This document shows positions 4,239-33,757 of a stretch of 64,000 bases of DNA, in pieces. The notes under the pieces were generated by a model. The model was not told the origin of the DNA. It worked only from the letters and a program-made list of their open reading frames with translations, and searched no databases. Numbering within the stretch: position 1 is the stretch's first letter; each line of letters starts with the position of its first letter. Both the position numbers and the translations under genes were made by a program. The stretch spans positions 1-64,000 of the forward strand of contig RFVC01000006.1 of the NCBI GenBank assembly GCA_009922595.1, read 5' to 3'. Source of the DNA: Gammaproteobacteria bacterium. Its GTDB lineage: Bacteria > Pseudomonadota > Gammaproteobacteria > Pseudomonadales > Pseudohongiellaceae.

Positions 4239-4241
4239 GGC

Positions 4242-11063: not shown

Positions 11064-11095
11064 CAAAAAAATGATGCGAGGCTGAATACGTCTTC

Positions 11096-13919: not shown

Positions 13920-13940
13920 TGAAATGACCTGTAGCGGCGC

Positions 13941-14978
13941 TTAGTACTCAGGTACTCGCCCAGTAGATTCCCTTATCTGAAGCGTGCCGGGGATTATTTC
14001 AAGGCGCTGGACCGCTTCCTTGCTCGTAGCTCCCTCGATAACAATCTTAGCGGCGTGCTCTGCCATCTTAGCAAGGGGTTGGGTAATAGTGGTTAGGGTG
14101 GGGTAAACCTGCTTGGCCAGTGCGATGTCATCGTAACCGGCCACTGACAACTCGTCAGGTATGACAATACCGAGCCTTTTGGCCGCCCGCATCACACCAA
14201 CGGCCATATCATCATTTGCTGCAAAAATAGCCGTTGGTGGGGACTTTCTGGCCATAAGTTTTTCCGTGGCTGTTTCACCTGCGCCGACGGAGTTGTCACC
14301 CTGAAGAATGAGGGCCTCCTGGATTTTAAGCCCGCATTCCTGCATACCCTTGCGAAAACCTGATAGCCGATTGGCGACGGCCTTGTGGCTGGGCTCACCG
14401 GCAATAAAGGCAATAGATTTATGTCCCAGGGAATGCAGGTGATGGACCATCATGCCACTGATCTCCTGATCATTGGTAGATATGGTGCTATGCTTGGGGT
14501 CCTTCTTGCCAGGTGACAGGCAAACAACTGTTGTACCGGCAGATTCGATTGTCCTAATGATTTTAGGCATGTTGGAGAGCGGTGCGGCCACTATTATGCC
14601 GTCAGGCCGGGCATGATCTATGAGCGATTTGATTTCTCTGATGATATTCCGGTTCTTAGGTCTGCAGGGATGAATTAGAAGGTCATAATTATTTTCCCGG
14701 CAGGCCTTGAGCACGCCTTCCTGCATATTAATAATGTAGCCTGAGGAGGGGAGCTCATAGGCGGCCGGATCGTCGTAGAGCAGAGCTATGAGATGCGAGC
14801 GTTGGCTGGCAAGATTGCGGGCAGAGACGTTTGGCCTGTAGTTCAGCTCCTCAATAGCTCTAGATACTCTTTTCTGAGTATCCTCGCGTACATTAGGCTC
14901 ATTATTAACGACACGCGAAACAGTCTTTATCGATACACCAGCACTCTTAGCAACGTCTTCAAGTGTAGATCTATACAT
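13941..14978 (-). CDS. LacI-family transcriptional repressor of the sugar island
   Basis: This 345-residue regulator has an N-terminal helix-turn-helix and hinge (TLEDVAKSAGVSIKTVSRVVN, then ELNYRPNVSARNLA). A periplasmic-binding-protein-like sensor domain follows (residues about 60-335), with HLHSLGHKSIAFIAGEPSHKA and AIFAANDDMAVGVMRAAKRLG. It diverges from the TonB receptor gene across a 300-base region holding two of the three operator palindromes, so it likely represses that receptor and perhaps itself. The third operator suggests it also controls the symporter/GAPDH and GH3 transcripts. The inducer is probably a gluco-oligosaccharide or glucose derivative, by context only. Confidence 0.9.
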   Translation of the reverse strand: MYRSTLEDVAKSAGVSIKTVSRVVNNEPNVREDTQKRVSRAIEELNYRPNVSARNLASQRSHLIALLYDDPAAYELPSSGYIINMQEGVLKACRENNYDLLIHPCRPKNRNIIREIKSLIDHARPDGIIVAAPLSNMPKIIRTIESAGTTVVCLSPGKKDPKHSTISTNDQEISGMMVHHLHSLGHKSIAFIAGEPSHKAVANRLSGFRKGMQECGLKIQEALILQGDNSVGAGETATEKLMARKSPPTAIFAANDDMAVGVMRAAKRLGIVIPDELSVAGYDDIALAKQVYPTLTTITQPLAKMAEHAAKIVIEGATSKEAVQRLEIIPGTLQIRESTGRVPEY

Positions 14979-15118
14979 TTAATACCTTAAAAAAACCTCA
15001 ATTTTCAGTCTGCACCCTTTCAGATGACATTTTATTGCCCAATAGATCAAAAGGGCAGGAAGGATTTTAACTCCCTTATAAAATTAAATATCTAGCGGCA
15101 AATAATTATAGCGAATAG

Positions 15119-15134
15119 TTGACAACGCTGTCAG
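15119..15134. promoter_or_regulatory. LacI-family operator 1 before the TonB receptor gene
   Basis: TTGACAACGCTGTCAG, a near-perfect palindrome with the same core as the site at 8648-8663. It covers the -35 hexamer of the receptor promoter. Confidence 0.85.
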
Positions 15135-15147
15135 GTTATCATATAAA
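15119..15147 (+). promoter_or_regulatory. Predicted promoter of the TonB receptor gene
   Basis: TTGACA at 15119-15124 and TATAAA at 15142-15147 are 17 bases apart. Predicted transcription start is near 15154, leaving a leader of about 125 bases before the ATG at 15279. The spacing and operator overlap copy the arrangement at 8648. Confidence 0.75.
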
Positions 15148-15155
15148 TTTCCTTA

Positions 15156-15171
15156 ATGACAACGCTGTCAA
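15156..15171. promoter_or_regulatory. LacI-family operator 2 before the TonB receptor gene
   Basis: ATGACAACGCTGTCAA, a second site 37 bases from operator 1 (centre to centre), lying at or just after the predicted transcription start. Dual sites flanking a promoter are typical of tight LacI-type repression. Confidence 0.85.
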
Positions 15172-15278
15172 TGTGATTTAAGTGTTGTATTCAATCAATT
15201 AAACACTCATTAGATTAAGAATCTACCTCAAGAAAGAGTAAGTGTGGGTACTTAAATTTAGAGGGGAAAGAAAACACG

Positions 15279-18086: not shown

Positions 18087-18099
18087 ACACCAAGATGTG

Positions 18100-18132
18100 A
18101 TGGCAGGGTTCTCCCCCTTCTAGTCCTGCCAT
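18100..18132 (+). other. Inverted repeat in the receptor-zwf spacer
   Basis: ATGGCAGG and CCTGCCAT can form an eight-base stem with a loop of about 17 bases. No T-tract follows, so it is not a terminator. It could protect the receptor mRNA 3' end together with the downstream hairpin. Confidence 0.4.
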
Positions 18133-18165
18133 TACATGCTTAGCTGGCAGATGGTGCTAGTGGAT

Positions 18166-18197
18166 AATTAATGCCCTCTCTAGGGCATTAATTTTTT
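18166..18197 (+). terminator. Rho-independent terminator after the TonB receptor gene
   Basis: AATTAATGCCCT and AGGGCATTAATT form a perfect twelve-base stem around CTCT, followed by TTTT. It ends the receptor transcript only about 22 bases before the zwf start codon. Confidence 0.85.
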
Positions 18198-18219
18198 AAA
18201 CACCTAAAAAGGACAATGC

Positions 18220-19686
18220 ATGGCCGAGTTGATTCCTGTAGAGGCATTTGACCTGATTATTTTTGGGGGCAATGGTGACCTGGCGTCACGCAAGCTCCTT
18301 CCCGCTCTATTTCATCGATTCTGTGACGGTCAGATAACCAATGACAGTCGCATTATTGGGGTGGGCAGGGAGGAACTCGACCAGGCTGCTTTCATCGGTA
18401 ATGTGAAGCAGGCATTTGAAACCATCAATCCCCTGGCCGTCGATAAAAAATTCCAGCCCTTTTCTGCACTCATCGACTACGTGCAGCTCGATGCGCTTGA
18501 TCATGGCAGCTGGAAGAAACTTGTCGAGAGACTCAAGGGTCATGAACACAAGGCTACCACTGTCTACCTGGCAACCCATCCCACGCTGTTTGGCTCCATA
18601 GCAAATGGACTGAGCAAGAATGGTCTCATCCATGATCAAATGCGCATAGTGCTCGAAAAACCGGTAGGTCATGACTACGAGTCAGCCAGTAATATCAATG
18701 ATGAGGTCGGGACGTGTTTCAGGGAAAACCAGGTCTTTCGTATCGACCATTATTTAGGCAAGGAAACCGTCCAGAACCTGCTGGCTCTGCGCTTTGGCAA
18801 TTCCCTCTTTGAGCCGTTATGGCGTAGAGAAGTGATTGATCATGTCCAGATCACAGTGGCAGAAGACCTCGGTGTGGAAAGTCGTCTTGATTTCTATAAT
18901 AGGACGGGCGCCCTGCGCGATATGGTGCAGAATCATCTTATGCAGCTGGTTTGCCTGGTAGCCATGGAACCTCCGAGCAGCCTCAGTGATGATTCTGTCA
19001 GGGATGAAAAAATCAAAGTGTTGAGAGCCCTGAAGCCCATTGGTGCTGGTGAAGTGAAAACCCATACCGTGAGAGGGCAATACACAGCCGGAGCCGTGGC
19101 GGGTGAAGCGGTTAACGGGTATGCCGAGCAGCTTAAAGATGGAGAGTCTTCACAGACTGAGACCTTTGTCGCCATTAAGCTCGAGGTAGATAACTGGCGC
19201 TGGTCTGGTATTCCTTTTTACCTGCGCACTGGCAAACGACTAGAAAGAAAGCACTCGGAAATTCTGATCCAGTTCAAACAGGTGCCGCATTCCATTTTTG
19301 ATACGGAACATTTCTCCACGCTGCCCAACAGGCTTTCGATCATGCTGCAGCCAGATGAAGGAATGAAGCTGAATATTATGGCCAAGGAGCCAGGGCCCGG
19401 GGGGTTTAAACTTAAGCCGGTATCATTGGATCTCAGTTTCGAGCAGACCTTCGGAGTGAAATACCCGGACTCCTACGAGCGGCTGCTGATGGAAATTTTC
19501 AGGGGCAACCAGGCGCTCTTTATGCGCCGCGATGAAATTGAAACTGCTTGGCAGTGGACGGACAGCATCCTGGAAGGTTGGGAATCTGCCAGCCAGTCAC
19601 TGGAATACTACAAGGCGGGATCGTGGGGCCCGACAGGGGCGTTCCTAATGCTGGATCGCGATGACAGGCACTGGGCAACAGGCTAG
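18220..19686 (+). CDS. zwf: Glucose-6-phosphate 1-dehydrogenase
   Basis: This enzyme oxidises glucose-6-phosphate to 6-phosphogluconolactone, the entry step of the Entner-Doudoroff and oxidative pentose routes. It is 488 residues long, as usual. Visible motifs are the nucleotide-binding IIFGGNGDLASRKLLPALF near the N-terminus, VLEKPVGHDYESA, the active-site RIDHYLGKETVQNLL and FYLRTGKRL. The start codon is preceded by AAAAGGA. It heads a tight five-gene set (gaps of 11, 12 and 1 bases, then a 17-base overlap). No separate promoter is obvious in the short gap after the receptor terminator. Confidence 0.96.
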   Translation: MAELIPVEAFDLIIFGGNGDLASRKLLPALFHRFCDGQITNDSRIIGVGREELDQAAFIGNVKQAFETINPLAVDKKFQPFSALIDYVQLDALDHGSWKKLVERLKGHEHKATTVYLATHPTLFGSIANGLSKNGLIHDQMRIVLEKPVGHDYESASNINDEVGTCFRENQVFRIDHYLGKETVQNLLALRFGNSLFEPLWRREVIDHVQITVAEDLGVESRLDFYNRTGALRDMVQNHLMQLVCLVAMEPPSSLSDDSVRDEKIKVLRALKPIGAGEVKTHTVRGQYTAGAVAGEAVNGYAEQLKDGESSQTETFVAIKLEVDNWRWSGIPFYLRTGKRLERKHSEILIQFKQVPHSIFDTEHFSTLPNRLSIMLQPDEGMKLNIMAKEPGPGGFKLKPVSLDLSFEQTFGVKYPDSYERLLMEIFRGNQALFMRRDEIETAWQWTDSILEGWESASQSLEYYKAGSWGPTGAFLMLDRDDRHWATG

Positions 19687-19697
19687 GAGTTCGGCTA

Positions 19698-20312
19698 ATG
19701 CAGGTTTTCAGTGATAGGACAGAAGCCTCGGAGGCGCTTACAGATCACATTCAATCCAGGCTTAAGCTAGAGTTAGCGGTTAAAGAGCGAGTGCTGTTTG
19801 TGGCCAGCGGTGGAACAAGCCCGATGCAGTTTTTTGACCTGCTTTCGGACAGAGACCTTGCCTGGGAGCGCGTTATGGTGTCGCTCTCCGATGAACGCTG
19901 TGTGCCCGCCAACCATCCGGAGAGTAATGAAAAACTGGTCCGCGATCACATGCTGAGAAATAAAGCCTTTGTAGCTGGCTTTATCTCTCCCGATGACAAT
20001 GCACTTGCCGCCTTGATGCCAGCTGCCTGTACTTTGCTAGGTATGGGTGAGGACGGTCATTTTGCTTCACTGTTTCCCGATTCAGAACAGCTTAAGCAGG
20101 GACTGACCAGCAACAGCCAGACACTAAGGGTAGCCACTCCCTCAAGTGAGTTCGAGCGTATTAGTATGACACTTCCAACACTTTTGAACAGTAAGGACAT
20201 TGTCTTGCTGGTTTTTGGAGAAAAGAAAAAGCAGGTACTGGAGAATTCACAGGGGTTGCCGATTGAACGTTTGCTAAAGGCAGCCGACATAAAAATCTTC
20301 TGGGCTCCTTAG
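19698..20312 (+). CDS. pgl: 6-phosphogluconolactonase, short form
   Basis: This enzyme hydrolyses 6-phosphogluconolactone to 6-phosphogluconate. Motifs: VASGGTSPMQFFDLL, VSLSDERCVPANHPESNEKLVR, and LGMGEDGHFASLFPDS. At 204 residues it is about 30 shorter than usual. The missing part lies between FISPDDNAL and the LGMGEDGH motif, where other family members have an extra helix-strand segment, so this is an internal shortening and not a truncation. The frame is clean and the position between zwf and edd fits. I expect it to be active. Confidence 0.92.
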   Translation: MQVFSDRTEASEALTDHIQSRLKLELAVKERVLFVASGGTSPMQFFDLLSDRDLAWERVMVSLSDERCVPANHPESNEKLVRDHMLRNKAFVAGFISPDDNALAALMPAACTLLGMGEDGHFASLFPDSEQLKQGLTSNSQTLRVATPSSEFERISMTLPTLLNSKDIVLLVFGEKKKQVLENSQGLPIERLLKAADIKIFWAP

Positions 20313-20324
20313 AGGGTCAATCCA

Positions 20325-22127
20325 ATGCATTCAGTAATTGAACAAGTCACGGAAGCCGTCAGCCAGCGCAGTGCTGAATCTCGGCAGCAATACCTGGATA
20401 AGATTTACAGGGCGGCCCAGGATGGGCCTGGCCGCAACCAAATGCCATGCAGCAACTTTGCGCACGGTATCGCCGCCTGTTCTTCGGCAAACAAGTCACG
20501 GCTTCAGGACCCCAGTGTTACTAATATTGGCATCGTTTCTGCCTACAACGATATGCTGAGTGCGCACCAGCCCTACGAGCAATACCCTGCGCAAATTCGA
20601 GCTTTTGCCGAGGAGCTTGGCGCCGTAGCACAATTTGCCGGCGGCGTCCCTGCCATGTGTGACGGTGTCACCCAAGGCCAGGATGGTATGGACCTGTCCC
20701 TATTCAGCCGCGACGTCATTGCTCTTTCTACGGCAGTGGCCCTGTCGCATAACATGTTTAACGGCGTGGCCTGTCTCGGAATCTGCGACAAGATTGTCCC
20801 CGGTCTGATGATTGGTTCACTGGCCTTTGGTCATCTTCCAACTATTTTTATTCCTGCAGGCCCGATGCCTTCAGGTCTTGGCAACAAGGAAAAGGCTAAG
20901 GTCAGGGAAGCCTTTGCTGCAGGAGAGGCGAGCCGCGGTGATCTGCTTGCGGCTGAATCAGCTGCCTATCACAGTCCCGGTACCTGCACTTTCTACGGTA
21001 CTGCAAACACTAACCAGATGCTGATGGAATTCATGGGACTGCAGCTGCCGGGCAGCTCATTTATCAATCCGAGAACCGAGTTGCGTGAAGCCCTGACCAG
21101 GGAAGCCGTGCGTCAGCTCGTTGCCAATGCTGAAGAAGGTGAGCTACTGCACGGGCGCAATGTTGATGAGAAAGTCGTTATCAATGGCATCATTGGGCTA
21201 CTTGCAACGGGTGGCTCAAGCAATCACACGCTGCATCTTGTTGCTATCGCCAGGGCTGCTGGCATCAAAATTCTCTGGGAGGATTTTGCGGCCTTGTCCG
21301 AGGTGATTCCGCTTATGACCCGCGTGTATCCAAACGGCGTCGCTGATGTGAATCATTTCAATGCCGCCGGCGGCCTAGCTTTTATTATTCGCGACTTGCT
21401 GGCCGAAGGGCTGCTGCATGATGATGTTGCTACGATCGTAGGCAAGGGCATGGAAAAATATACACATGTTCCCAGTCTCGATATTGACAAGGTTGCCTGG
21501 CGCCCTGTTGAAACCACCTCGGGGGATTACAGTGTCCTGCGATCTGTAAAAGAGGCCTTCCATCCAACTGGGGGCCTGCAGCTTGTCACTGGCAACCTAG
21601 GCAAGGCTATTATCAAAACTTCCGCGGTGGAGGAAAAATTTCGTAAAATTAAAGCCCCGGCTAAAGTCTTTGCAAGTCAGAAAGCTGTGCTCGAGTCATT
21701 TTATGCAGGTGAGCTGGAGCAGGACATGGTGCTCGTCCTGATACACCAGGGTCCCATGGCTAACGGTATGCCCGAACTGCATAAACTCACCCCCTGTCTT
21801 GGTGTTTTGCAGAACCGGGGTTTCAAAGTGGCGCTTTTAACCGATGGCAGAATGTCAGGTGCTTCCGGTAAAGTGCTCTCGGCCATTCACGTTTCACCTG
21901 AAGCGCATGCTGGCGGCAATATCGGTCTCATTAAGGATGGAGATATGATTACCATTGATGCCATGGGGGGAAGCTTTGGGGTTGAAGCCGACCTGGATGC
22001 ACGACAGACCTCTGCGGATAAGGTCATGCAACCCACGGAAGGTATGGGCAGGGAACTATTTTCCGTTTTCAGAAACCAGGTGGCTTCAGCCGAGGAAGGA
22101 GCTTCAATTTTTTTCAGTGAAGAATAA
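20325..22127 (+). CDS. edd: 6-phosphogluconate dehydratase
   Basis: This enzyme converts 6-phosphogluconate to 2-keto-3-deoxy-6-phosphogluconate, the committed Entner-Doudoroff step, using an iron-sulfur cluster. It is 600 residues, normal for the family. IlvD/Edd hallmarks include [68 protein letters not shown] and [18 protein letters not shown]. Cluster-ligand cysteines in the PAMCDG and GICDK segments are present. The stop codon is one base from the eda start. Confidence 0.96.
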
Positions 22128-22128
22128 T

Positions 22129-22755
22129 ATGGATGCCCTGAGTCTGCTTGAAGAGTTTAAACTGGTCCCCGTGTTGGTCATCAATAATGCCCAAACTGCA
22201 ATTGATCTCGCCAGGTGCTTGCAGGATGGCGGTATCGGCGCCCTGGAAATTACACTTCGCACACCTGCAGCTTTGTCTGCCTTAGAGGCAATCGCTAACA
22301 GTGTAGAGGGCATGTTGCTGGGTGCGGGAAGTATTCGCCAGGCCGGGCAGTTTGAATCAGTCAAAAATGCCGGCGCCAGTTTTGCTGTTAGCCCTGGGGC
22401 TACTGACACACTTGTGGACGCGGCTAAAAAGCTTGCCATGCCTTTTGTGCCCGGCGCTGTGACCCCAAATGAAATGCTAGCCTTGTATGAAAAGGGTTAT
22501 ACGCTGCAGAAATTTTTTCCGGCTGAATTATCGGGCGGTGCGTCGCTTCTTAAGGCTGTAGCAGCGCCTATCCCGGAGCTACGTTTTTTTCCGACCGGTG
22601 GTATCAATGCCGCCCTTGTAACTGAATACTCCAAACTTCCTAATGTGGTCAGTATTGGTGGCAGCTGGTTTGCCCCTGCCGAGCTGATTGCAGAAAAGAA
22701 ATTTTCACAAATCACCAAAAAAGCTAAGGAAGCCTTAAGTGTCTTTAACAACTGA
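22129..22755 (+). CDS. eda: KDPG aldolase (2-dehydro-3-deoxyphosphogluconate aldolase)
   Basis: This enzyme cleaves 2-keto-3-deoxy-6-phosphogluconate to pyruvate and glyceraldehyde-3-phosphate. I take the ATG at 22129 (208 residues) although the frame is open further upstream inside edd; MDALSLLEEFKLVPVLVI is the normal N-terminus and it starts one base after the edd stop. The Schiff-base lysine is in GYTLQKFFPAE, the catalytic glutamate in GALEITLRT, and the phosphate-binding FFPTGGIN is present. The 3' end overlaps the glk start by 17 bases. Confidence 0.95.
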   Translation: MDALSLLEEFKLVPVLVINNAQTAIDLARCLQDGGIGALEITLRTPAALSALEAIANSVEGMLLGAGSIRQAGQFESVKNAGASFAVSPGATDTLVDAAKKLAMPFVPGAVTPNEMLALYEKGYTLQKFFPAELSGGASLLKAVAAPIPELRFFPTGGINAALVTEYSKLPNVVSIGGSWFAPAELIAEKKFSQITKKAKEALSVFNN

Positions 22756-23740
22756 CAGCGTCCTACTTGTAGGAGATATCGGCGGGACCAATGCGAGGTT
22801 CGCACTTGCCGAGCCGGAGGGGCATGCCTACCTGCAGGAAAAAGTGCTGCAATGTGCTGAATACAACACTCCCGAACTGGCAATACGCGCCTACCTGGAC
22901 AGTATCGAGGCACCAATGCCATCAGCGATATGTCTTGCCGCGGCGGGACCGGTTCGTGAAGGCAGCGTCGACCTGACCAATAACAACTGGCATATCCGTG
23001 AGACCTCGCTAAATCAGGAATTTGGTATCTCTACGTCCTGTCTTCTTAACGATTTTGAAGCGATTGCTTCCAGCCTACCTGAGTTGTTGCCGGAAGAAAT
23101 GATTACCTTTGGTCTGTATGAGCCAAGGAACCTTGATACCCAGGCATTTAATGTGGCCGTGATAGGACCGGGCACTGGGCTAGGCGCTGCAGGTCTCATC
23201 AAGCGCGATGATGCAGTCATTCCGGTTATTACCGAGGCGGGTCACGTTGGTTTTGCGCCGGAGAATGCGCTGCAGCGAGCGGTTTGGGAAATTCTTAGGC
23301 ATCGTTTTGGGCGCGTTTCAGATGAAAGGCTAGTGTCAGGCAGCGGCCTGGAAAATATCTACACTTCACTTTCTGAAATACATGATTCTCCAAGCCATCC
23401 GCTCAAGGCACCCGAAATTTTTAAAAATGTGAATAGCAATACCCTGGCAGCAGAGTCGGTGAATCTGTTCTTTGAAATCCTCGGCCAGGTTGCGGGCAAT
23501 TTTGTGCTGGCCACTGGTGCTTTCGACGGGCTTTACATTGCGGGTGGGATTGTACAGCGCTATCCCGATTTGCTAGCCAATAGTTCATTTCGCGCCAGCT
23601 TTGAAAACAAGGGCCGTCATCGCCATCTACTGGAAAAAGTCCCTACTGTTCTCATAAACCATGCGCATCCAGGTTTATTGGGCGCATGTATGAAAGTAAA
23701 AAACTTGCTTGGAAAAGATGTAAAGAAAAATTTAAATTAA
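22739..23740 (+). CDS. glk: Glucokinase
   Basis: This enzyme phosphorylates intracellular glucose with ATP, feeding zwf. It is 333 residues long, with a GTG start inside eda preceded by AAGGAAG. Hallmarks of the proteobacterial glucokinase group are VGDIGGTNARFAL near the N-terminus, LNDFEAIA, GPGTGLGAAGLI, and EAGHVGFAPEN with the catalytic-loop aspartate upstream. It completes the zwf-pgl-edd-eda-glk set, which suits free glucose released by the glucosidases. The next gene starts only 17 bases later but is very different in composition. Confidence 0.95.
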   Translation: MSLTTDSVLLVGDIGGTNARFALAEPEGHAYLQEKVLQCAEYNTPELAIRAYLDSIEAPMPSAICLAAAGPVREGSVDLTNNNWHIRETSLNQEFGISTSCLLNDFEAIASSLPELLPEEMITFGLYEPRNLDTQAFNVAVIGPGTGLGAAGLIKRDDAVIPVITEAGHVGFAPENALQRAVWEILRHRFGRVSDERLVSGSGLENIYTSLSEIHDSPSHPLKAPEIFKNVNSNTLAAESVNLFFEILGQVAGNFVLATGAFDGLYIAGGIVQRYPDLLANSSFRASFENKGRHRHLLEKVPTVLINHAHPGLLGACMKVKNLLGKDVKKNLN

Positions 23741-25746: not shown

Positions 25747-27378
25747 TCAGAGGTTCAGCGAGTAGGCTGTTTCTAATTCGAGACAGTGGGCCTGGCTTTC
25801 CTCTGCCAGTACTGACCCTTCGCAGACGGAAGCAATATTCGAGTAGAGTGCTTCCAGGCCGGCAGCTGTGCCATCTTCAACTTCTGTTGTTTTCTGCCAC
25901 TGCTCAAGACTGTCTAGCAGCATTTGCAGGCGGGCAAAGTTGCGGCCCGAGAGCATGTTTTCGGCCTCACTAAATTCGGATAGCAACTGCTCCGAGATGC
26001 CGAGGATGACTTCGCTTTGTTCAGGCACAAGGCGAACTAAAGTGTCAACGTACTGATACCCCCACTGGAAGCGGGTAGCTTCCCCCGAGGCGCCTTCCCA
26101 GGCCTTCCTGTTCCACTCCACGGCCAGCTCAATGTTGCCCGCATTCTCTTCGATGCCGCCGAGACTGCTCATGAAGTAGTAAGGGGCATGGGATTTTTCC
26201 AGTTCCTTTAGCAGCAGTTCCCGGGCCAGGTCAGCGCGGCCGGCTTCCTCCAAAAGCTGGTAGCTGGTATTGATGACATTCTGACGGGCTTCGCCGCGGG
26301 TATCTTGGTCAACAGCATCAATGAAGGCAATGATTTCCTGCTCCAGGTCTGCCGGCAGTGTGGTTGCCTCCGGATTGTTCATCCTGAAATTGCCTACCAC
26401 GGGATACCAGCTGGCAATATGCTCAGCGCCCGACAGCTGCGATGCGTCGCGCAGCGTGTCCATGGCCGCTATCCATTTCTCTACCAGCTTGTCCCTGCTG
26501 GCGCCCTGATCGGTCAGCATCGGTACAAGGTCTTCAAAGTAAAGCAGCGCGTAGTCGCTGTTGGCCAGAACTAGTTCAGGATTGGTAAAGACAGTTTCCA
26601 TGGCGCTCAGTGCTGCAGTTTTTTCTGCATCACTTAAGCCGGTAAAGTCTTTCTGGCTGCCCTTTGCATAAAGCGAATGGAAAAACAGGCGTGACCAGGC
26701 CACGTGGTTGCCAGCCTGGCGGGACTGCTCTGCCAGCGTCGCATAAAGAGTGCCTTTCATTTCCAGGTCTTCGGGTAGTGTTGCCTGTTCCCAGGAATAA
26801 AAGGCCAGGCGGGTGTAGGCGTCAGGTGCCATGGCATCGGGTTCGTGAATGGCCAGCTTTAGCAGGTCAAGTGTACTGGTGAGGTCATCCAGTGCCAGTT
26901 GCAGGACGTTCAGGTATTGTTCGCTGTCTATCCAGCCGGGAATACGGGTTATCTCTTCACCCTCGGGTGAAAACACAATCATGGTGGGATAGCCGGCAAC
27001 GTCGAAATGCTGTCCCCATGACTGGGCTCTTTCGGTATCCCCATCCAGGTAGACAGGAATAAACAGGCTGGTCTTGGCCAGGAATGCCGGATGCTTGAAT
27101 ACGGTGGCCTTGATCTGTTCACAGGGTGGACACCAGATAGCACCCCAGTAGAAAAAGAGCGGCTTGTTATAGGTCTCGGCCAGGGCAAAGGCTTCTTCAA
27201 TAGTGCCGTCGTACCATTCAATGGCCTTGTGTCCTTCTTCAACAACTAGTGCTGTTTCAGAGACTGGCTCCTGGACAGTCCCGGCAGTGTCCTGTGACTG
27301 ACCACAGGCTACGACACCGGCAACGCCCGCAAGCAGTGTCGCCAGGATGAGAGGGTTATACGACGAATGCTTACTCAT
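25747..27378 (-). CDS. Thioredoxin-fold lipoprotein with CPPC motif
   Basis: This 543-residue envelope lipoprotein has a signal peptide ending in VVAC, with lipidation expected at Cys25. A thioredoxin-like domain (about residues 50-165) contains WCPPCEQIK at 83-86, with VDLDGD-like YLDGDTERA and the cis-proline segment AGYPTMIVFSPEGEEITRIPG, as in DsbD C-terminal and thioredoxin-like proteins. The remaining 370 residues are alpha-helical, resembling TPR-type repeats. It is the last gene of the five-gene leftward operon starting at 33757, 15 bases after the ankyrin gene. Disulfide reduction of a partner, perhaps the CxxC-containing ankyrin protein, is a plausible inference. Confidence 0.8.
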   Translation of the reverse strand: MSKHSSYNPLILATLLAGVAGVVACGQSQDTAGTVQEPVSETALVVEEGHKAIEWYDGTIEEAFALAETYNKPLFFYWGAIWCPPCEQIKATVFKHPAFLAKTSLFIPVYLDGDTERAQSWGQHFDVAGYPTMIVFSPEGEEITRIPGWIDSEQYLNVLQLALDDLTSTLDLLKLAIHEPDAMAPDAYTRLAFYSWEQATLPEDLEMKGTLYATLAEQSRQAGNHVAWSRLFFHSLYAKGSQKDFTGLSDAEKTAALSAMETVFTNPELVLANSDYALLYFEDLVPMLTDQGASRDKLVEKWIAAMDTLRDASQLSGAEHIASWYPVVGNFRMNNPEATTLPADLEQEIIAFIDAVDQDTRGEARQNVINTSYQLLEEAGRADLARELLLKELEKSHAPYYFMSSLGGIEENAGNIELAVEWNRKAWEGASGEATRFQWGYQYVDTLVRLVPEQSEVILGISEQLLSEFSEAENMLSGRNFARLQMLLDSLEQWQKTTEVEDGTAAGLEALYSNIASVCEGSVLAEESQAHCLELETAYSLNL

Positions 27379-27393
27379 GGCGATGTCCTTGAA

Positions 27394-28986
27394 TCAGTTC
27401 GCGGCAGTTTCAGAATCCACCAGGATGGTGCCCAGCAGTTCGGCCACTTTCTGTCGGCCCTCTACGTTGGGCCGACGACCCGGGCGTGTGCTCTCAACCA
27501 CTTCGGCCAGGGCCAGGTCCAGGGGTGTCTTGCCTTCATTATCCACAATGGTTGGATCAGCGCCACGCTCGATTAATACAGCAGCAACTTTCTCCCAGCC
27601 GAGTTCGGCGACTGAATGAAGTGCCGTGCGACCTTCATTGTCTTTCCATGCAATGTAGGTATCCAGCTTGGCGGTAAAGGTATGGCTGTCGTTTACCTGG
27701 GCGTTAACATCCGCGCCGGAATCCAGCAGCATGTTAATCGTCTTGATGGCGCGGTCCTGGATATCTTCGCCGTTGGAACCGGTTGGACCACGGCCGTTGC
27801 CGCTCATGCCTGCCGCATACATTAAGGGAGTAATCCTGAAGACGTTACGGAGGTCTACCTCAGCGCCGTTTTCAAGCAGCACCTCAATCATGTCATAGTC
27901 GTGAGTGAACACGGCGATCATCAGGGCATGTGCGCCGCCGCGCATGTCATAGTCGGCAAAACGGCCGCGGCCTGGGCCATTAGGGCGCATGCGTGTAAGC
28001 TGGTGATTGACATCAACGCCCATATCGATCAGGCGCTTTACAATATCCATTGCCGTAATAGAGCGTTCAGTGCTGGCCAGCGGATTAAAAACATCACCAA
28101 AGCTGCCAAAGGATCTTGGCACAAATGAATTCATGTCCACGGCCAAGTAGAGCGGCGTACGACCAGTCATGTCCCAAACGTCCACCTTGGCTCCCTGGTC
28201 AATCAGGAACATGGCAATATCAAAACTCTTGTTGTCGATAGCGTTCAGCAGCGGCGTGACACCGTCCGGATTGGGCTGGTTGATGTTGGCTCCGGCTTCC
28301 ACAATTGATACGGCACAGCGATAGCAGCCTGAACGTGTCGCGTAAAGCAGGGCTGTGAGACCGCCGGTTGGACGGAACTGGGCGCGCGGCTCTGAAGTCA
28401 TTTGCCTGGGCCAGTCGTCGTACACGGCTTTCACGGAGACATCTGCACCACTGGCAACCAGCAGTTCTGCAATCTCGGGATGGTTTTCTGCAGAGGCCCA
28501 CATCAGCGCAGTCTGTCCACGGAATGTTTCGATCACGTTCACATCAGCACCGGCATTCAGGAGCATCTCGACAATTTCCAGGTTGCCAATATAGGAAGCC
28601 AGCATCAGCGGGGTCTGGTTATCCAGGTTGGGAGAATCGGGATCAGCGCCGGCATTCAGCAGCTTGCGTACCAGTTCAGCGTCGTTGAGCTTGGTGGCTT
28701 CTGCCAGAGGTGAAGATCCATAGTTGTTGGTGACGTCAGCATCAGCGCCAGCGGCAAGTAGGGCATCGACCAACTCATGGTTAACATTGTAGGTTGCATA
28801 CATGAGGGCAGTGGAGCCATCAGGCTGCGCGGAATTTACATCAACACCGGAAGCGATCAATTCAAGGGCATCGGCGCTGCGCTTATCCTTGATCAGTTCA
28901 ACCAATGATTCCTGAGCACTGGTAGCAACGGAAAAAATAGAGGCAAAAGCAATGAGAGCAGTGCTCCGGAGAATTCGTGTAATCAT
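27394..28986 (-). CDS. Secreted ankyrin-repeat protein with a single CxxC pair
   Basis: This exported protein has about 530 residues. The start at 28986 is chosen because its ATG overlaps the TGA of the MBL gene (TGATG) and gives a signal peptide (MITRILRSTALIAFASIFSVATSA). A dozen or so ankyrin repeats follow (for example GSTALMYATYNVNHELVDALL and DNQTPLMLASYIGNLEIVEML). The only two cysteines are in SGCYRCAVS, within one repeat; the paralogue at 46454-48058 has GCTECIKV at the matching place. Ankyrin repeats mediate protein binding. Co-translation with an MBL protein and a downstream thioredoxin-fold lipoprotein suggests a periplasmic complex with redox control. Confidence 0.85.
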   Translation of the reverse strand: MITRILRSTALIAFASIFSVATSAQESLVELIKDKRSADALELIASGVDVNSAQPDGSTALMYATYNVNHELVDALLAAGADADVTNNYGSSPLAEATKLNDAELVRKLLNAGADPDSPNLDNQTPLMLASYIGNLEIVEMLLNAGADVNVIETFRGQTALMWASAENHPEIAELLVASGADVSVKAVYDDWPRQMTSEPRAQFRPTGGLTALLYATRSGCYRCAVSIVEAGANINQPNPDGVTPLLNAIDNKSFDIAMFLIDQGAKVDVWDMTGRTPLYLAVDMNSFVPRSFGSFGDVFNPLASTERSITAMDIVKRLIDMGVDVNHQLTRMRPNGPGRGRFADYDMRGGAHALMIAVFTHDYDMIEVLLENGAEVDLRNVFRITPLMYAAGMSGNGRGPTGSNGEDIQDRAIKTINMLLDSGADVNAQVNDSHTFTAKLDTYIAWKDNEGRTALHSVAELGWEKVAAVLIERGADPTIVDNEGKTPLDLALAEVVESTRPGRRPNVEGRQKVAELLGTILVDSETAAN

Positions 28987-29951
28987 CAAACTACGTTGCC
29001 TCCAAAGTTTGTGTAATGCGCCCACAAACCTTTTGCGGCGTCATATAAGAACTTGTATGGATCATCAAATGTACGATCAATCTCATCCATCACGCCGGCA
29101 TCGAGAATGTCCTGTGCACTGCGCCCATTATTGACGAGCGTCGAACAGCGCTCCCATAGGTACCACATCATGGCGTGCTCAGCCCTGAAATCCTCAAGGG
29201 TCATGACCGGACCGTAGGCAGGAACAATCAGCGTGTCGTCGTTGGTGATTTCAAGGATGTCATCCATGGCATCGACACGGCCGCCGAGCCAGCCGCCGGC
29301 ATACCAGTCGAGGGAAGGATCCCTCAATGGAGAAGCCACATCACCAACGGCAATAACATTGGCTTCCTGCAGATGCACATAAGCATCACCGCGTGTATGG
29401 GCTTCCAACAGGTACCCAAATTCTATGCTTTCATTGCCAATGGTCAGTGCTTCTTTTTCCCTGAATGTATGTGTCGGTCGCCCAATCTCAGGCAGGGCTG
29501 AGGTCCAGTAGTCCTCGAAGGGTACATAATGGTCAGCGCTGAGCCACTGACGCGTTATTTCATGCGCATGGATGGCTGCTCCGGCTTCACCGAACAGGGC
29601 ATTACCACCGGACTGGTCAGCGTGATAGTGCGTATTGATAAGCGTATGGACTGGGGTATCCCCAAGCGTCAGCTGCACAGAGGGCGCCAGGGAGGCAGAG
29701 CCACTATCCACCAGCATGTGACCTGAGTTAGTAGTCAGGACCAGGATATTGCCCGGCGCACCATTGATGACACTGACGTTTTCGCGAATCGTTTCCATGG
29801 CCAGCCGGGTTGGGGCCCGCATAGCTTTTACAACTGCAGGATTTTCCTGCGCCCGTTCCTCGCTGGAGCAGCCGGTAAGGCCGGCCAGTATGGGAGCAGA
29901 GGCCAGGCAAACGCCCGCCTTGAGTAAATTTCTGCGTTCGTACTTCTTCAT
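28986..29951 (-). CDS. MBL-fold hydrolase, Tat lipoprotein, altered metal site
   Basis: The product has about 321 residues. I take the ATG at 29951, because the longer frame would run into the preceding gene and this start gives a Tat-like signal (YERRNLLKAG) ending in a lipobox LTGC. The metallo-beta-lactamase fold is shown by MLVDSGSAS, INTHYHADQSGGN, EAHTRGDAYVH, VIAVGDVAS and IVPAYGPVM. The usual HxHxDH is HYHADQ and the usual GHG histidine is Tyr, so two ligands of the second zinc site are absent while the first site is intact. A mononuclear or non-hydrolytic enzyme is likely. It is third in the five-gene operon, and the truncated gene at 63202 is a relative. Confidence 0.85.
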   Translation of the reverse strand: MKKYERRNLLKAGVCLASAPILAGLTGCSSEERAQENPAVVKAMRAPTRLAMETIRENVSVINGAPGNILVLTTNSGHMLVDSGSASLAPSVQLTLGDTPVHTLINTHYHADQSGGNALFGEAGAAIHAHEITRQWLSADHYVPFEDYWTSALPEIGRPTHTFREKEALTIGNESIEFGYLLEAHTRGDAYVHLQEANVIAVGDVASPLRDPSLDWYAGGWLGGRVDAMDDILEITNDDTLIVPAYGPVMTLEDFRAEHAMMWYLWERCSTLVNNGRSAQDILDAGVMDEIDRTFDDPYKFLYDAAKGLWAHYTNFGGNVV

Positions 29952-29991
29952 AAATGACTTCTGATAATTCTTGTTACTTTTCTTACCCGGA

Positions 29992-31332
29992 TCAGACTTC
30001 AGAAAGAATGCCTGTGCTGTTGCCAAAGTTTTCCTGCGGAATTCCGAGTTTGTCGAGAATTGTCAGGTGGATATTGGCAAGCGGTGTTCGTTCCGGTGGC
30101 GTGACATTTTTGCCGCCTTTGTGTGCGCCGCTTGCACCACCCACCAGAATTTCCGGCAGTGGGTAGTTGTCATGCTGATTACTGTTGCCCATGTTTGATC
30201 CGTACAGGAAAAGAGAGTGATCAAGAATGCTACCGTCACCATCTGGTGTGTCAGCCAGTTTCTGTACAAAGCGGGCAAAGTGCTCCATGTGGTAAGTCTG
30301 AACCTTGATCAGTTCCTCAATGCGCACCCGGTCATTAGTGTGATGACTGGTTGGGTGGAAGCCGCCGTTCATGCCGACATGAGGATAAGTGCGGTCAGTG
30401 CCTTCGGCGGCCATAACCAGTGTTAGGACGCGGGTCAGGTCAGCCTGGTAGGCAAGGGCTGCCAGGTCAAACATCATGGTGATCTGCTCATCGAAATCTT
30501 CAAATACGCCAACAGGTGCCGCAGGGACATCAATACCTGACATGTCCTGGTTGCTGGCAATCTGCACGCGGCGTTCTATCTCGCGCACGGTATCCAGATA
30601 GTTGGAAAGAATTTCGCGGTCGCCTGAACCCAGCTCGTTCTGCAGAGCCTTTGTACGGTCAGCAATCATGTCGAGGATGCTGCTGTTCTTGTCCAGGATC
30701 ATGGCTCGCTCTTCCTGCGAATCGTAGGGACCCATCAGCTGGATAAAGACCTTGCGTGGATTGAACTCCATCGGCAGCGGCTGGTTGGGTGAGGCGAACG
30801 AGGTAGTTACTGCATAAAAACCGCCGTTGCCCGCAGCCACCTGCACGGTGGTTTCGGTAGCCATTTCCAGTGAAGGCAGGGCCGTTTCCTGTCCCAATTG
30901 CTGGGCAATCACTTGGTCGAGCGTAGTGGCCAGTTCAGGAATGGAGCCTTCACCCGGTCTTACACAGGACAGCCATGTGGCTGGATTGAAAGTATGGACA
31001 GAACCCAGTGCGGCATTGTTCTCAATGTTTTCAAACGTGGTGACGTAATTCTTGAATGGCTCCAGCGTCTGCATCATCCTGCCGAGCTGGAAAGAGTCAC
31101 CTGAACCGGAACTGGTCCAGTGGTCCACTTCTTTACCAAATGGCGTGTTGTTCATAATGGTGCCATGCGGCAGGTAGAAAAAGCCGGCACGTTTTTTCGG
31201 CATGGCTTCTACCTGGGCAAGCGCCGTACCTGCTGGCACCATGGCATCAAGGAATGGAAGTGCCAGCGCAACGCCGCTACCTCGCAAGACTTCTCGACGC
31301 GACAAGTATTTCTTGGTTAGAAATTTAGCCAT
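29992..31332 (-). CDS. DUF1552 (HXXSHH) protein, Tat-exported
   Basis: This 446-residue protein belongs to the DUF1552/HXXSHH family, named for a histidine motif visible here as HPTSHH near residue 330. The N-terminus KKYLSRREVLRGSGVALALPFLDAM is a twin-arginine signal, so the protein is folded before export. The family is related to the sulfatase-like DUF1501 group and typically sits beside DUF1592 genes in Planctomycetes and Myxobacteria; here the DUF1592 gene is four bases upstream. The biochemical role is unknown. A metal-dependent exported enzyme working with a c-type haem protein is a reasonable inference. Confidence 0.85.
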   Translation of the reverse strand: MAKFLTKKYLSRREVLRGSGVALALPFLDAMVPAGTALAQVEAMPKKRAGFFYLPHGTIMNNTPFGKEVDHWTSSGSGDSFQLGRMMQTLEPFKNYVTTFENIENNAALGSVHTFNPATWLSCVRPGEGSIPELATTLDQVIAQQLGQETALPSLEMATETTVQVAAGNGGFYAVTTSFASPNQPLPMEFNPRKVFIQLMGPYDSQEERAMILDKNSSILDMIADRTKALQNELGSGDREILSNYLDTVREIERRVQIASNQDMSGIDVPAAPVGVFEDFDEQITMMFDLAALAYQADLTRVLTLVMAAEGTDRTYPHVGMNGGFHPTSHHTNDRVRIEELIKVQTYHMEHFARFVQKLADTPDGDGSILDHSLFLYGSNMGNSNQHDNYPLPEILVGGASGAHKGGKNVTPPERTPLANIHLTILDKLGIPQENFGNSTGILSEV

Positions 31333-31336
31333 TTTG

Positions 31337-33757
31337 TTATCTCCCGGTTGCTACAGACGCCATTTCGTGCGACTGGCCGTGGTGTTCCTCTGAGCCCTGC
31401 ATGCGAAATACATCGTGATTTACTAGTGCAGTAATAATTGAGGTAAAAGTGTAATTATCTTCGGCGGCCTTGCGAACGATCTCGCGGACAAACGGCATGT
31501 CGAAATATTCCACTTCCCTGTTAAGGCCATACATCATTAATTTCTTGGTGATGGTCATGGGTAACTGGTCCTTCTTACTGAGCAAGAATTCGCGTAGCTC
31601 AATGGGACCATCAATTTCTAGGCCGCTGGTCAGCACTGTTGAAGCATCGATAGCCTCACCAGCCTGCGCATCTTCGTCACGCCAGGTGCCGATTACGGTG
31701 TAATTTTCCAGTGCAAGTCCCGGCGGGTCGATAATGCCGTGACAGGACATGCAGTTTGGATTCTGGCGATGCTCTTCGAGGCGGGCTCGAATAGTCGTTG
31801 GTTTTTCACCCTCGCGAATCGATAGGTCCACTTCGACATTGGGCGGAGGTGGAGTCGGTGGTGTTCCCATGATGCGGTCAAGCACCCAGGCGCCGCGCAG
31901 TACGGGTGAAGTGCGGTCACCATAGGACGTTCTCAGCAGTGTTGCCCCTTTGCCGAGCAGTCCCCAGCGGTTTTCATCTTCCAATCTGATGCGGCGGAAC
32001 TGCGGTCCGTAAATTCCCTCAATGCCGTAGTGACTTGCCAGTGAATCATTGACGAACGTCCAGTCTGCTGTAAGCAGCTCACTTACTGGGCGGTCCTCCA
32101 GCAGGACGCTGCTTAGGAACAGGCGAATTTCTTTTTCAAAGTTGGTGCGTGTGCCGTCATTGAAGCGGCGATCAACAGGTTGTATCTGCTCCAGCTCATC
32201 AAGGTTCAGCCATGCTAGCGCAAAATTTTCAATCAGAGCTTCTGCACGATTGTCATCAAGCATCCTCTTCACCTGTTGTGCCATGATTTCAGGGTCAGAC
32301 AGCGAACCATTAGATGCCAAAGCGATCAGTTCCTCATCAGGTCCCTGGCTCCACAGGAAAAAGGCCAGGCGCGTAGCCAACTCGAGGTCGTTCAGCTGAC
32401 GCGGGCTCTCTTCGATGATGCGCATGGAGCGATACAGGAAATCCGGGCTGGACAGGATGGCCGTTGTCATTTCGATAATGCCCGCATCGAAACCGCCTTC
32501 CTCGGCACGGCCCACTTTATAGAAAGGCATAATCCAGTCTAGATCATCATCAGAGATAGGGCGTCGGAATGCTCGGGCGGCCAGGTTCCGGGCAATTTCT
32601 TCAGCGCAGGGCTGTTCCTCGGCAATTTCCAAGGGCTGGCAGATCAGAAGTTTTTCGCGGCTTTTGCTCATGGACAGCCCACTTGGATTGTAAGGGCCCT
32701 CAACCTGTACGCCCAGGCCAACAATTGGCATGCCGGTGACACGCCCGTTGCCGGTGGCGTTATTGCTGGCTGCCCAGGATCGCTCTATAAATGTAACCAC
32801 CACTTCACGGGTACCCACCTCAATGTCTGCAGACAGTCCGGCAATCTTGGCTAAAATGACGTCACCCCCAACTACACCGTCACGAGTAGCAATAGCTAGG
32901 TCTTGGGGTCCGCCAATGTCAACGCGGTTTACCTCAACGCCATCAACGAATATGACCATCGTTGCTGATGTCTCCATACCGCGTGGGTAGAGACCAGCAT
33001 CAATATCCAGAATACTGAATCGGTATTCACCATCAGCCGGGAAGAAATGTTTGAATTTCATGCCGCCGCGTGTGCCCAGCGGAAAGCCGTCAATGTGGTT
33101 GCGCGATGCACTATTGCCGGCCATGAAGCCGATGTTGCGGTTGGGCAGTTCATGAAAGACGCTTGCAAACTTAGGCACCGGCTGACCGATAGCCTCGGTC
33201 GCCACGGCGCGGGTCGCCGTGATGTATTGTTCCAGGAATGCAGGGGACGCGCCAAGCGCATTAGCGATGTTGTCGAAGCCCTCGACTTCTATTTCACTCG
33301 GCAGAATCTGAACGGGATCAACATCAACGCCGAGTAGGTCACCGACGATTGTTGCAAACTCAGTTCTGTTTAGGCGCTGTATCGGTACGTGTCCGATAAC
33401 ATGATCGCTGGACCCGGTATCAATGGAATTTTCCAGGTAGCTGACAACTTGGTCTACGATTTCCTGGTCAGGCTGTGGCTGTCCTGCAGGGGGCATTAGC
33501 CTTCCACGCAGCTTGTTGATGGCTTCTTCCCATACAGCCGGATCATTGGTGACATGATTGATATCCATGAGGTCAAAGGCGAGTCCACCGGAGTAGTCCT
33601 CGTAGTTATGACAATTAACACAGAAATCCTGTATCAGGCGGGCGGCATCCTGGCTGCTACCAAGTGCTGAGGTGGACTGGGCAGAGGTGCCCTGAATTGC
33701 AATGGCCATGAAGAATGTCGCCATGGCTTTCAATGAAAAAACTGCTTTGCCGTTCAT
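31337..33757 (-). CDS. Exported c-type haem protein with DUF1587/1595/1592/1588/1585 domains
   Basis: The start is taken at the ATG at 33757 (806 residues), which gives a signal peptide ending near GTSAQS; a longer in-frame start exists upstream. Domain order: cytochrome-c-like segment with CVNCH at 46-50; DUF1587 (IQRLNRTEFATIVGDLLGV); a carbohydrate-binding-like beta-sandwich insert (about 235-355); DUF1595 (ARAFRRPISDDDL); DUF1592 (ATAILSSPDFLYRSM and LATRLAFFLWSQGPDEEL, in part); DUF1588 with a second haem motif CMSCHGIIDPPG at 669-673; and a DUF1585 C-terminus. This layout is known from planctomycete-type secreted proteins of unknown function. It is the first gene of the exported five-gene operon, and electron transfer is suggested by the two haem motifs. 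Confidence 0.85.
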   Translation of the reverse strand: MNGKAVFSLKAMATFFMAIAIQGTSAQSTSALGSSQDAARLIQDFCVNCHNYEDYSGGLAFDLMDINHVTNDPAVWEEAINKLRGRLMPPAGQPQPDQEIVDQVVSYLENSIDTGSSDHVIGHVPIQRLNRTEFATIVGDLLGVDVDPVQILPSEIEVEGFDNIANALGASPAFLEQYITATRAVATEAIGQPVPKFASVFHELPNRNIGFMAGNSASRNHIDGFPLGTRGGMKFKHFFPADGEYRFSILDIDAGLYPRGMETSATMVIFVDGVEVNRVDIGGPQDLAIATRDGVVGGDVILAKIAGLSADIEVGTREVVVTFIERSWAASNNATGNGRVTGMPIVGLGVQVEGPYNPSGLSMSKSREKLLICQPLEIAEEQPCAEEIARNLAARAFRRPISDDDLDWIMPFYKVGRAEEGGFDAGIIEMTTAILSSPDFLYRSMRIIEESPRQLNDLELATRLAFFLWSQGPDEELIALASNGSLSDPEIMAQQVKRMLDDNRAEALIENFALAWLNLDELEQIQPVDRRFNDGTRTNFEKEIRLFLSSVLLEDRPVSELLTADWTFVNDSLASHYGIEGIYGPQFRRIRLEDENRWGLLGKGATLLRTSYGDRTSPVLRGAWVLDRIMGTPPTPPPPNVEVDLSIREGEKPTTIRARLEEHRQNPNCMSCHGIIDPPGLALENYTVIGTWRDEDAQAGEAIDASTVLTSGLEIDGPIELREFLLSKKDQLPMTITKKLMMYGLNREVEYFDMPFVREIVRKAAEDNYTFTSIITALVNHDVFRMQGSEEHHGQSHEMASVATGR

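Follow-up and report, generated by a model that had tools for sequence, protein, structure and literature searches.

The first 64,000 nucleotides of contig RFVC01000006.1 (GenBank assembly GCA_009922595.1), from a gammaproteobacterium of the Pseudohongiellaceae, are referred to here as the window and carry on the minus strand a run of five closely spaced genes (Table 1). Their products are a DUF1592-type dihaem c-type cytochrome protein, a DUF1552 protein, a protein of the metallo-beta-lactamase (MBL) fold, an ankyrin-repeat protein (ANK) and a thioredoxin-fold lipoprotein. The true unit within this run is a core of DUF1592, DUF1552 and exported ANK, often with MBL, and the thioredoxin lipoprotein is a downstream addition in the window genome.

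The intergenic gaps along the run are 4, 40, -1 and 15 bases, and at the -1 gap the A of the MBL stop codon TGA doubles as the A of the ANK ATG. Judged by their N-termini, DUF1592 and ANK carry Sec signals, DUF1552 and MBL twin-arginine (Tat) signals and the thioredoxin protein a Sec lipoprotein signal (VVAC); gene starts are those given by a simple caller of open frames; for export, a hydrophobicity and twin-arginine (RR) heuristic was used together with reading of the N-terminus, not SignalP. A first-pass annotation of this DNA had listed the five genes with the same spacing, export of every product, two haem sites and a CPPC motif in the thioredoxin-fold lipoprotein, and every point checked was correct, each N-terminus showing an export signal and both haem motifs lying in the first product. 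Counts of promoter-like sites (5 versus 7.4 expected) and terminator-like sites (14 versus 7.6, standard deviation 3.4) were uninformative.

Table 1. Genes and motifs of the cassette locus (33757-25747) in the window.
Feature	Position	Strand	Details and basis
DUF1592-type dihaem c-type cytochrome protein	31337..33757	-	806 aa, Sec signal; Pfam
First haem motif CVNCH, residues 46-50 of DUF1592 protein	33608..33622	-	sequence
Second haem motif CMSCH, residues 669-673 of DUF1592 protein, invariant H663 nearby	31739..31753	-	sequence
DUF1552 (PF07586 HXXSHH) protein	29992..31332	-	446 aa, Tat; predicted alkaline-phosphatase/sulfatase fold
H113 of DUF1552, invariant; perhaps at the sulfatase nucleophile place	30994..30996	-	alignment
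HXXSHH motif of DUF1552 (H326, S329, H330, H331)	30340..30357	-	alignment
H387 of DUF1552, invariant	30172..30174	-	alignment
MBL-fold protein, Tat signal and lipobox LTGC	28986..29951	-	PF00753; ATG start at 29951
HYH of MBL, first zinc-site motif	29622..29630	-	alignment of 56 members
Exported ankyrin-repeat protein (ANK), Sec signal	27394..28986	-	PF00023/PF12796; ATG start at 28986
CYRC (CxxC) pair within ANK	28315..28326	-	alignment of 115 cassette ankyrins
Thioredoxin-fold lipoprotein, accessory, outside the conserved core	25747..27378	-	543 aa; PF13098/PF13899
CPPC of thioredoxin-fold lipoprotein	27121..27132	-	sequence

Conservation of the operon in relatives

The DUF1552 protein was searched for in 57 genomes, comprising the window's own genome and its relatives, and was matched in 25 of them, with 12-19 copies in each of 11 genomes belonging to the genera g1 (the window's genus) and g8 and at most five elsewhere. 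Orthologues of the window protein were found in ten genomes at 72-90% identity; nine of their neighbourhoods were inspected, the tenth (G012, a 4.3-kb piece) being left out. The order DUF1592-DUF1552-MBL-ANK was kept in all nine, in one of which (L053) the DUF1592 gene is cut by a contig end.

The thioredoxin gene, however, was present in only one of the nine (G003, 59% identity), where it lies downstream of a GSDH-type dehydrogenase gene, and the five genes were consequently rejected as a unit. Full-length relatives of the lipoprotein were restricted, among 54 genomes, to G003 and G038 (35% identity), the latter of which has no DUF1552 match and no other cassette-family match in the 18 kb around its thioredoxin gene. 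In the 160 fetched loci with any cassette-family match, a match to the thioredoxin family was again confined to G003. In the window genome the lipoprotein could perhaps keep the cysteines of the ankyrin protein or of the haem motifs in shape. The first-pass annotation had seen in the five genes a defined envelope system whose order should recur in relatives; an exported, haem-containing unit is indeed real and the order of its first four genes is conserved, but the fifth gene does not belong to it. The outcome that it had itself raised against the idea, an order conserved in no relative, did not materialize, as the four-gene order is general among the inspected orthologous loci and the DUF1592-DUF1552-ANK triple extends to four phyla (see below).

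Paralogues and distribution across phyla

The window's own genome contains 12 matches to PF07627 and 12 DUF1552 genes. Beside the 11 DUF1552 genes other than that of the window cassette, DUF1592 was encoded nearby on the same strand in 10 cases, ANK in 8 and MBL in 6, and the commonest order was MBL-DUF1592-DUF1552-ANK (4/11); the window cassette accordingly belongs to a family whose gene order changes. A second full cassette in the latter order (L041) begins at the end of the window (63202-64000) and continues along the contig, with a convergent DUF1552/DUF1592 pair beyond it. In the phylum of the window PF07586 was detected in 6 of 299 sampled genomes, the window's own included, and copy number ranged from 3 to 59 across the 20 genomes in which DUF1552 genes were counted, so that the family is rare but multiplied where it is present, strongly so in certain environmental bacteria.

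A scan of named genomes with a DUF1552 alignment (A1), from which the best 80 of 581 loci were kept, yielded 88 DUF1552 genes accompanied by DUF1592 in 81, ANK in 79 and MBL in 39 cases. These 80 loci span the Gamma- and Alphaproteobacteria, Acidobacteriota, Planctomycetota and Verrucomicrobiota, some of the fetched loci being cut by contig ends. Since A1 was composed mostly of ANK-linked copies (16 of its 19 rows) and only the best-scoring loci were retained, 79/88 should be read as an upper figure for ANK, and because of this composition 60 further loci were picked from listed Pfam matches in 11 genomes already found by A1. Four of them (L206, L213, L217 and L236), all with ANK, turned out to duplicate loci already in the first set and were dropped, which lowered the ANK count from 29/60 to 25/56; DUF1592 accompanied 54 and MBL one of the remaining 56 DUF1552 genes. 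ANK linkage differed between genomes, with duplicates dropped, from 13/20 in G366, a Vicinamibacterales genome, and 2/5 in G363 to 0/8, 0/5 and 0/4 in G364, G362 and G367, which are planctomycete or verrucomicrobial.

On the partner counts of both samples, the DUF1592-DUF1552 pair is nearly constant; ANK as a rule accompanies it in Proteobacteria and in several copies from Acidobacteriota, and only exceptionally in the other two phyla. The DUF1592-DUF1552-ANK triple was found at least once in each of the Pseudomonadota, Acidobacteriota, Planctomycetota and Verrucomicrobiota, being rare in the sampled planctomycete and verrucomicrobial genomes, and MBL, frequent in Proteobacteria, also occurs in some Acidobacteriota. 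One record carrying the full cassette (L096) is titled as a Klebsiella pneumoniae metagenome-assembled genome, a title that probably reflects a misassigned bin.

Association and covariation of the partners

After removal of duplicates, 130 ankyrin-profile matches were found in the 1,478 kb of fetched sequence lying within 3.5 kb of DUF1552 or DUF1592 genes, versus two in the remaining 586 kb. The divergence of the partners is also correlated. Across genomes, again with duplicates removed, pairwise distances correlated at 0.87 for DUF1552-DUF1592 (n=144), 0.82 for DUF1552-ANK (n=115), 0.84 for DUF1592-ANK (n=99), 0.89 for DUF1552-MBL (n=54) and 0.83 for ANK-MBL (n=50), all five far exceeding permutations. 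Without the orthologue group, and with the duplicates included, four pairs still correlated at 0.73-0.87; all these values across genomes include shared ancestry. Within single genomes the DUF1552-ANK and DUF1552-DUF1592 correlations were 0.93 and 0.75 in the window's own genome (n=9 for each) and 0.70 (n=13) and 0.76 (n=20) in G366, values that none of 5000 permutations reached, and this within-genome correlation is beyond what species history can explain.

At position 56 of DUF1552, 96 of 115 ANK-linked proteins have H or M, versus 6 of 34 unlinked ones, in which N prevails, a difference of which shared ancestry may be the cause. On a DUF1552 tree built with FastTree only, ANK linkage switches 12 times, compared with a mean of 31.8 after shuffling. 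Four duplicates remain in these position-56 counts and this tree, as they do in the export heuristic and the 150-row DUF1552 alignment used below, and one in alignment A3. By that heuristic, a hydrophobic N-terminus was detected in 114/158 DUF1592 and 104/126 ANK proteins (9/156 and 9/123 in the internal controls) and an RR motif in 141/169 DUF1552 and 42/56 MBL proteins. The gene set thus recurs, its DUF1552, DUF1592 and ANK members vary together and their export signals are present; the cassette is conserved, multiplied and exported.

Were the genes simply neighbours that encode functionally unrelated exported proteins, with chance or shared expression as the only reason for their proximity, it would not be surprising that the thioredoxin gene is confined to two orthologous operons or that MBL varies in position and presence. 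The concentration of ankyrin matches beside DUF1552 and DUF1592 genes, the correlated divergence within single genomes and the preserved four-gene order at the inspected orthologous loci nevertheless make this explanation very improbable.

The DUF1592 protein

An N-terminal cytochrome c domain and PSD3, PSD5, PSD4, PSCyt3 and PSD2, all five above cut-off in Pfam, give this protein the layout cytochrome c - DUF1587 - beta-sandwich - DUF1595/1592/1588/1585. Its structural model (predicted local distance difference test score, pLDDT, 88.9; predicted template modelling score, pTM, 0.87) includes at residues ~193-360 a beta-sandwich that resembles carbohydrate-binding modules (CBMs) of families CBM35, CBM36 and CBM6, with Z scores of up to 7.9, a middling level for the tool. 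Outside these residues the model, in which the domains were folded together, gave no convincing PDB match (best Foldseek E 0.022), so that a known fold there is still conceivable, and a PDB sequence search with the protein likewise returned no useful match.

Among 60 aligned DUF1592 rows, 59 of them distinct (L110 and L213 are the same gene), C46, C49 and H50 of the first haem motif are found in 58, the other two being gaps, and the invariant Met88, a likely axial haem ligand, in all 60. The second haem motif and H663 are present in 60/60 rows, and further positions show complete or almost complete conservation. At one locus (L048, G000:C14) a cytochrome c maturation gene, CcmH, lies ~4 kb upstream of the cassette.

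The MBL and ankyrin proteins

The first zinc site is kept among the 56 MBL members (HxH in 51/56 and 52/56, the third His in 54/56), and the second-site positions vary, with Asp or Glu at 113, Asp or Gly at 205 and no consistent His at 247 in a numbering one higher than that from the ATG. Where the last ligand would be expected, the window protein has Y and the 56 members mostly have Y, S, N, A or T. With the positions presumed to have their usual zinc-ligand roles, MBL appears from its alignment to retain one zinc site and to have had the second eroded. By curated cut-offs it is neither a class B metallo-beta-lactamase (bla_class_B_core, 58.7 vs 100 bits), in line with the erosion of the second site, nor a member of the quinoprotein relay zinc hydrolase families of NCBIfam (TIGR04559 and TIGR04558, 49.9 vs 280 and 43.1 vs 300 bits).

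The CxxC pair of the cassette ankyrins has Cys in 65 of 115 aligned proteins at each of its two positions. Another ankyrin protein, of 534 aa and with a signal-like N-terminus, is encoded in the window at 46454-48058 (minus strand) with no adjoining DUF1592 or DUF1552 gene.

The DUF1552 protein

The window protein matches PF07586 with an E value of 1.2e-71 in Pfam. Its AlphaFold2 model (mean pLDDT 69.8, pTM 0.73) was matched by Foldseek to LtaS (E 5.1e-5) and to sulfatases, and by VIA-align to a nucleotide pyrophosphatase (Z 16.9, root-mean-square deviation 3.4 over 238 residues) and to sulfatases near Z 16. The model thus predicts a sulfatase/alkaline-phosphatase fold of the nucleotide pyrophosphatase/phosphodiesterase (NPP) type, and DUF1552 is probably a histidine-rich relative of the sulfatases. 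In an alignment of 150 rows (146 distinct), limited to frames of 401-559 aa, H113, H326, H330, H387 and the twin arginine RR12-13 are found in every row and H331 in 145. Position 380, which aligns beside what we take to be the metal-binding Asp of sulfatases, is mostly N, G or S.

Sequence profiles connect DUF1552 to sulfatases less directly. A PDB sequence search with the DUF1552 profile gave a best E of 0.77, and direct comparison with sulfatase profiles was weak in three runs (p 0.0035, 0.0065 and 0.015). DUF1501 (PF07394), a separate family with weak similarity to DUF1552, has a His within an 'NH.PA' motif in 10/11 rows and is linked to sulfatases by its profile: profiles of 14 and 8 sequences aligned over most of their length (E 2e-13) and placed the His of the DUF1501 NHAPA on the sulfatase Cys nucleophile. 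The alignment of DUF1552 with DUF1501 profiles in turn fell into two colinear parts, with p 7e-4 for the C-terminal one and 2e-3 for the other, and matched H113 to the NHAPA His. A repeat with other selections (11 and 13 sequences) recovered C-terminal links only (DUF1501-sulfatase 2.2e-7, DUF1552-DUF1501 0.001) and not the N-terminal alignment of H113, and the shared Tat signal alone gives p 0.0017 in a control comparison of DUF1552 with MBL. On this evidence a His in place of the nucleophile is plausible only, with H113 perhaps standing, by alignment, at the sulfatase nucleophile place. The partner cytochromes of DUF1501 presumably differ from those of DUF1552. DUF1501 itself had from 48 to at least 106 matches in each of G362, G364, G365 and G367 (planctomycete or verrucomicrobial), 106 being the number of candidates scored.

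The predicted fold also bears on a hydrolytic reading of the cassette, in which DUF1552 would still act as a phosphatase, sulfatase or phosphodiesterase with a His nucleophile, the cytochrome would be a regulator or a later electron sink, and MBL would hydrolyse a second bond. Sulfatase genes near PSCyt genes in Verrucomicrobia, described in passages of He et al. (PMC5615132), fit this reading as well. It is harder to reconcile with four histidines that are invariant throughout the DUF1552 alignment while position 380 mostly holds N, G or S, and with MBL members in which little of the second zinc site is left; it is possible, if doubtful.

Neighbouring genes

Around ANK-linked cassettes, 113 co-directional neighbours of the 189 collected were scanned. 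Among the first 25 of the 123 families, as listed, the commonest were pyrroloquinoline quinone (PQQ) dehydrogenases and ABC-2 transporters, with five each, and a uniform substrate read from the neighbours was rejected, as even the commonest families account for only 5/113 each. At one locus (L044) ANK is flanked by genes for a tannase and a small cytochrome-like protein, and at four others (L049, L066, L118 and L126) genes for products of ~254 aa and ~361-365 aa come after ANK. The PQQ dehydrogenase, GSDH and tannase neighbours suggest oxidation of organic matter.

Within the window, a GH3 gene and a gene for a TonB receptor (15279-18086) lie near the cassette, in the interval 8853-23740, and 18220-23740 contains transporter, regulator and glucose/Entner-Doudoroff-like genes, identified by reading of the N-terminus only. 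Two adjacent genes at 5115-7132 (minus strand) both have glyceraldehyde-3-phosphate dehydrogenase-like N-termini, and two similar genes of 246 aa lie at 3498-4982, the tested one of which had no Pfam match. A catalase-peroxidase-like protein with two PF00141 stretches and a signal-peptide-like N-terminus is encoded at 55119-57335 (plus strand), followed by a TonB-dependent receptor at 57496-59934.

An exported-looking catalase-peroxidase in the same window would suit an oxidative-stress cassette, in which the dihaem protein is peroxidase-like and ANK is its activator, and so would the pairing of an exported ankyrin with a haem protein, as described for AnkB and KatB in passages of PMC2830190 and PMC10294975. 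The DUF1592 protein, however, has no Pfam match to a catalase or peroxidase, and neither is present among the 25 commonest neighbour families listed, and as many as 59 DUF1552 copies per genome seem beyond the needs of stress defence, so that such a role is improbable.

A proposed extracytoplasmic oxidation cassette

The locus is best interpreted as one copy of a multiplied periplasmic or envelope oxidation cassette in which ANK is a dedicated partner and different copies serve different substrates, a reading to which we assign a probability of roughly 40%. Its most likely role is to oxidise organic substrates outside the cytoplasm; the particular step, the substrate and the metal are what we infer. 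The dihaem DUF1592 protein, with its sugar-binding-like sandwich between the haem domains, would take up or deliver electrons, and the Tat-exported DUF1552 protein, with a histidine-rich active site of the alkaline-phosphatase superfamily, would be the metal-containing catalytic partner. By analogy with AnkB and haem catalase, exported ANK may serve as the assembly or docking partner of the DUF1592-DUF1552 pair. The one-zinc MBL could be an exchangeable accessory that processes or binds the product, such as an ester or lactone in oxidised form, and different copies of the cassette may handle different substrates in a manner akin to different polysaccharide loci.

Several observations weigh against this interpretation. 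ANK is missing beside 31 of the 56 Pfam-sampled DUF1552 genes, including all 17 from G362, G364 and G367, and common DUF1592-DUF1552 pairs of this kind mean that ANK is not required by every pair. The DUF1552-MBL distance correlation within the window's own genome is 0.01 (n=7); beside the corresponding ANK values, this indicates that ANK travels with its DUF1552 and that MBL need not. Neighbouring genes indicate no single substrate. Two further points concern the likeness of the DUF1592 protein to Cbp2D of Cellvibrio japonicus, which is set out in the following section. A PDB sequence search with the first haem domain gave no significant cytochrome match, and none named X183 or Cbp2D, so that homology with the Cbp2D cytochrome is not established. 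In addition, lytic polysaccharide monooxygenases (LPMOs) of family AA10 (PF03067), the LPMO family searched for, were found in none of the 11 genomes of g1 and g8, so that a role as AA10 donor was rejected for these two genera, and the X183 domains of Teredinibacter gave no electrons to its LPMO, according to passages of PMC10916295; the LPMO-donor role therefore does not carry over.

A more specific form of the oxidation cassette can be put forward only tentatively. In it, histidines would have taken the place of the nucleophile and the acidic metal ligands in a protein of the sulfatase fold, so as to form a redox-metal centre that works with a dihaem cytochrome and is assembled with a dedicated exported ankyrin partner. 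The result would be an exported oxidative enzyme of a new class, and the cassette might have been multiplied and diversified to give an oxidative equivalent of polysaccharide utilisation loci. The finding that DUF1592 and DUF1552 are regularly joined by an exported ankyrin in Proteobacteria and Acidobacteriota, together with the probable nature of DUF1552 as a histidine-rich sulfatase relative, offers a definite complex and active site for experiments. If polymers or other recalcitrant carbon are indeed oxidised by the cassette, a missing piece of carbon cycling would be added.

Comparison with known systems

No description of the cassette was found in the literature searched, which consisted of open-licence PMC papers with supplements excluded. 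The closest account concerns freshwater Verrucomicrobia, in some genomes of which PSCyt3 genes are numerous and usually lie beside one unknown family, nothing being known of the function of PSCyt genes and their neighbours according to that study (He et al., 2017, PMC5615132). The unknown family is taken here to be DUF1552. The window locus has the same kind of pair, with the PSD/PSCyt3 set in one protein of the same cytochrome domain family and a DUF1552 gene adjoining; it differs in its proteobacterial lineage and in its ankyrin and MBL partners, the word 'ankyrin' having no occurrence in the main text and an MBL partner not being mentioned in the passages of the verrucomicrobial study.

Cbp2D is an exported protein for which published passages give two CxxCH domains with DUF1587 between them, and LPMOs can be reduced by its X183 domain in isolation (PMC8981238); it is needed for growth of Cellvibrio on insoluble cellulose, according to PMC12542752. 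TERTU_2913 of Teredinibacter is likewise exported and has a first and a second CxxCH domain. By this published domain order the window DUF1592 protein can be likened to it, both following the order CxxCH - DUF1587 - CxxCH, whereas the CBM2, X158 and FN3 domains of Cbp2D are absent from the window protein by Pfam and the CBM-like sandwich is found instead. In a straw-degrading culture, the biotin-labelled fraction contained a CBM2 protein whose best hit was the Cellvibrio DUF1592 domain-containing protein WP_007644728.1, and a second protein with the same best hit occurred in both fractions, as given in Table 1 of PMC6004670.

Ankyrin proteins that raise the activity of haem catalases have been reported, and AnkB is periplasmic, in the relevant passages of PMC2830190 and PMC10294975. 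In systems of the AnkB-KatB type the gene for the ankyrin protein lies next to that for a haem enzyme, and the window ANK is, like AnkB, exported and composed of ankyrin repeats. No catalase gene stands beside ANK, its neighbours being the MBL and thioredoxin genes at the window locus and DUF1552 in most cassettes. The haem protein of the AnkB-KatB type is a catalase, whereas that of the window is a dihaem c-type cytochrome, with DUF1552 as a constant third member.

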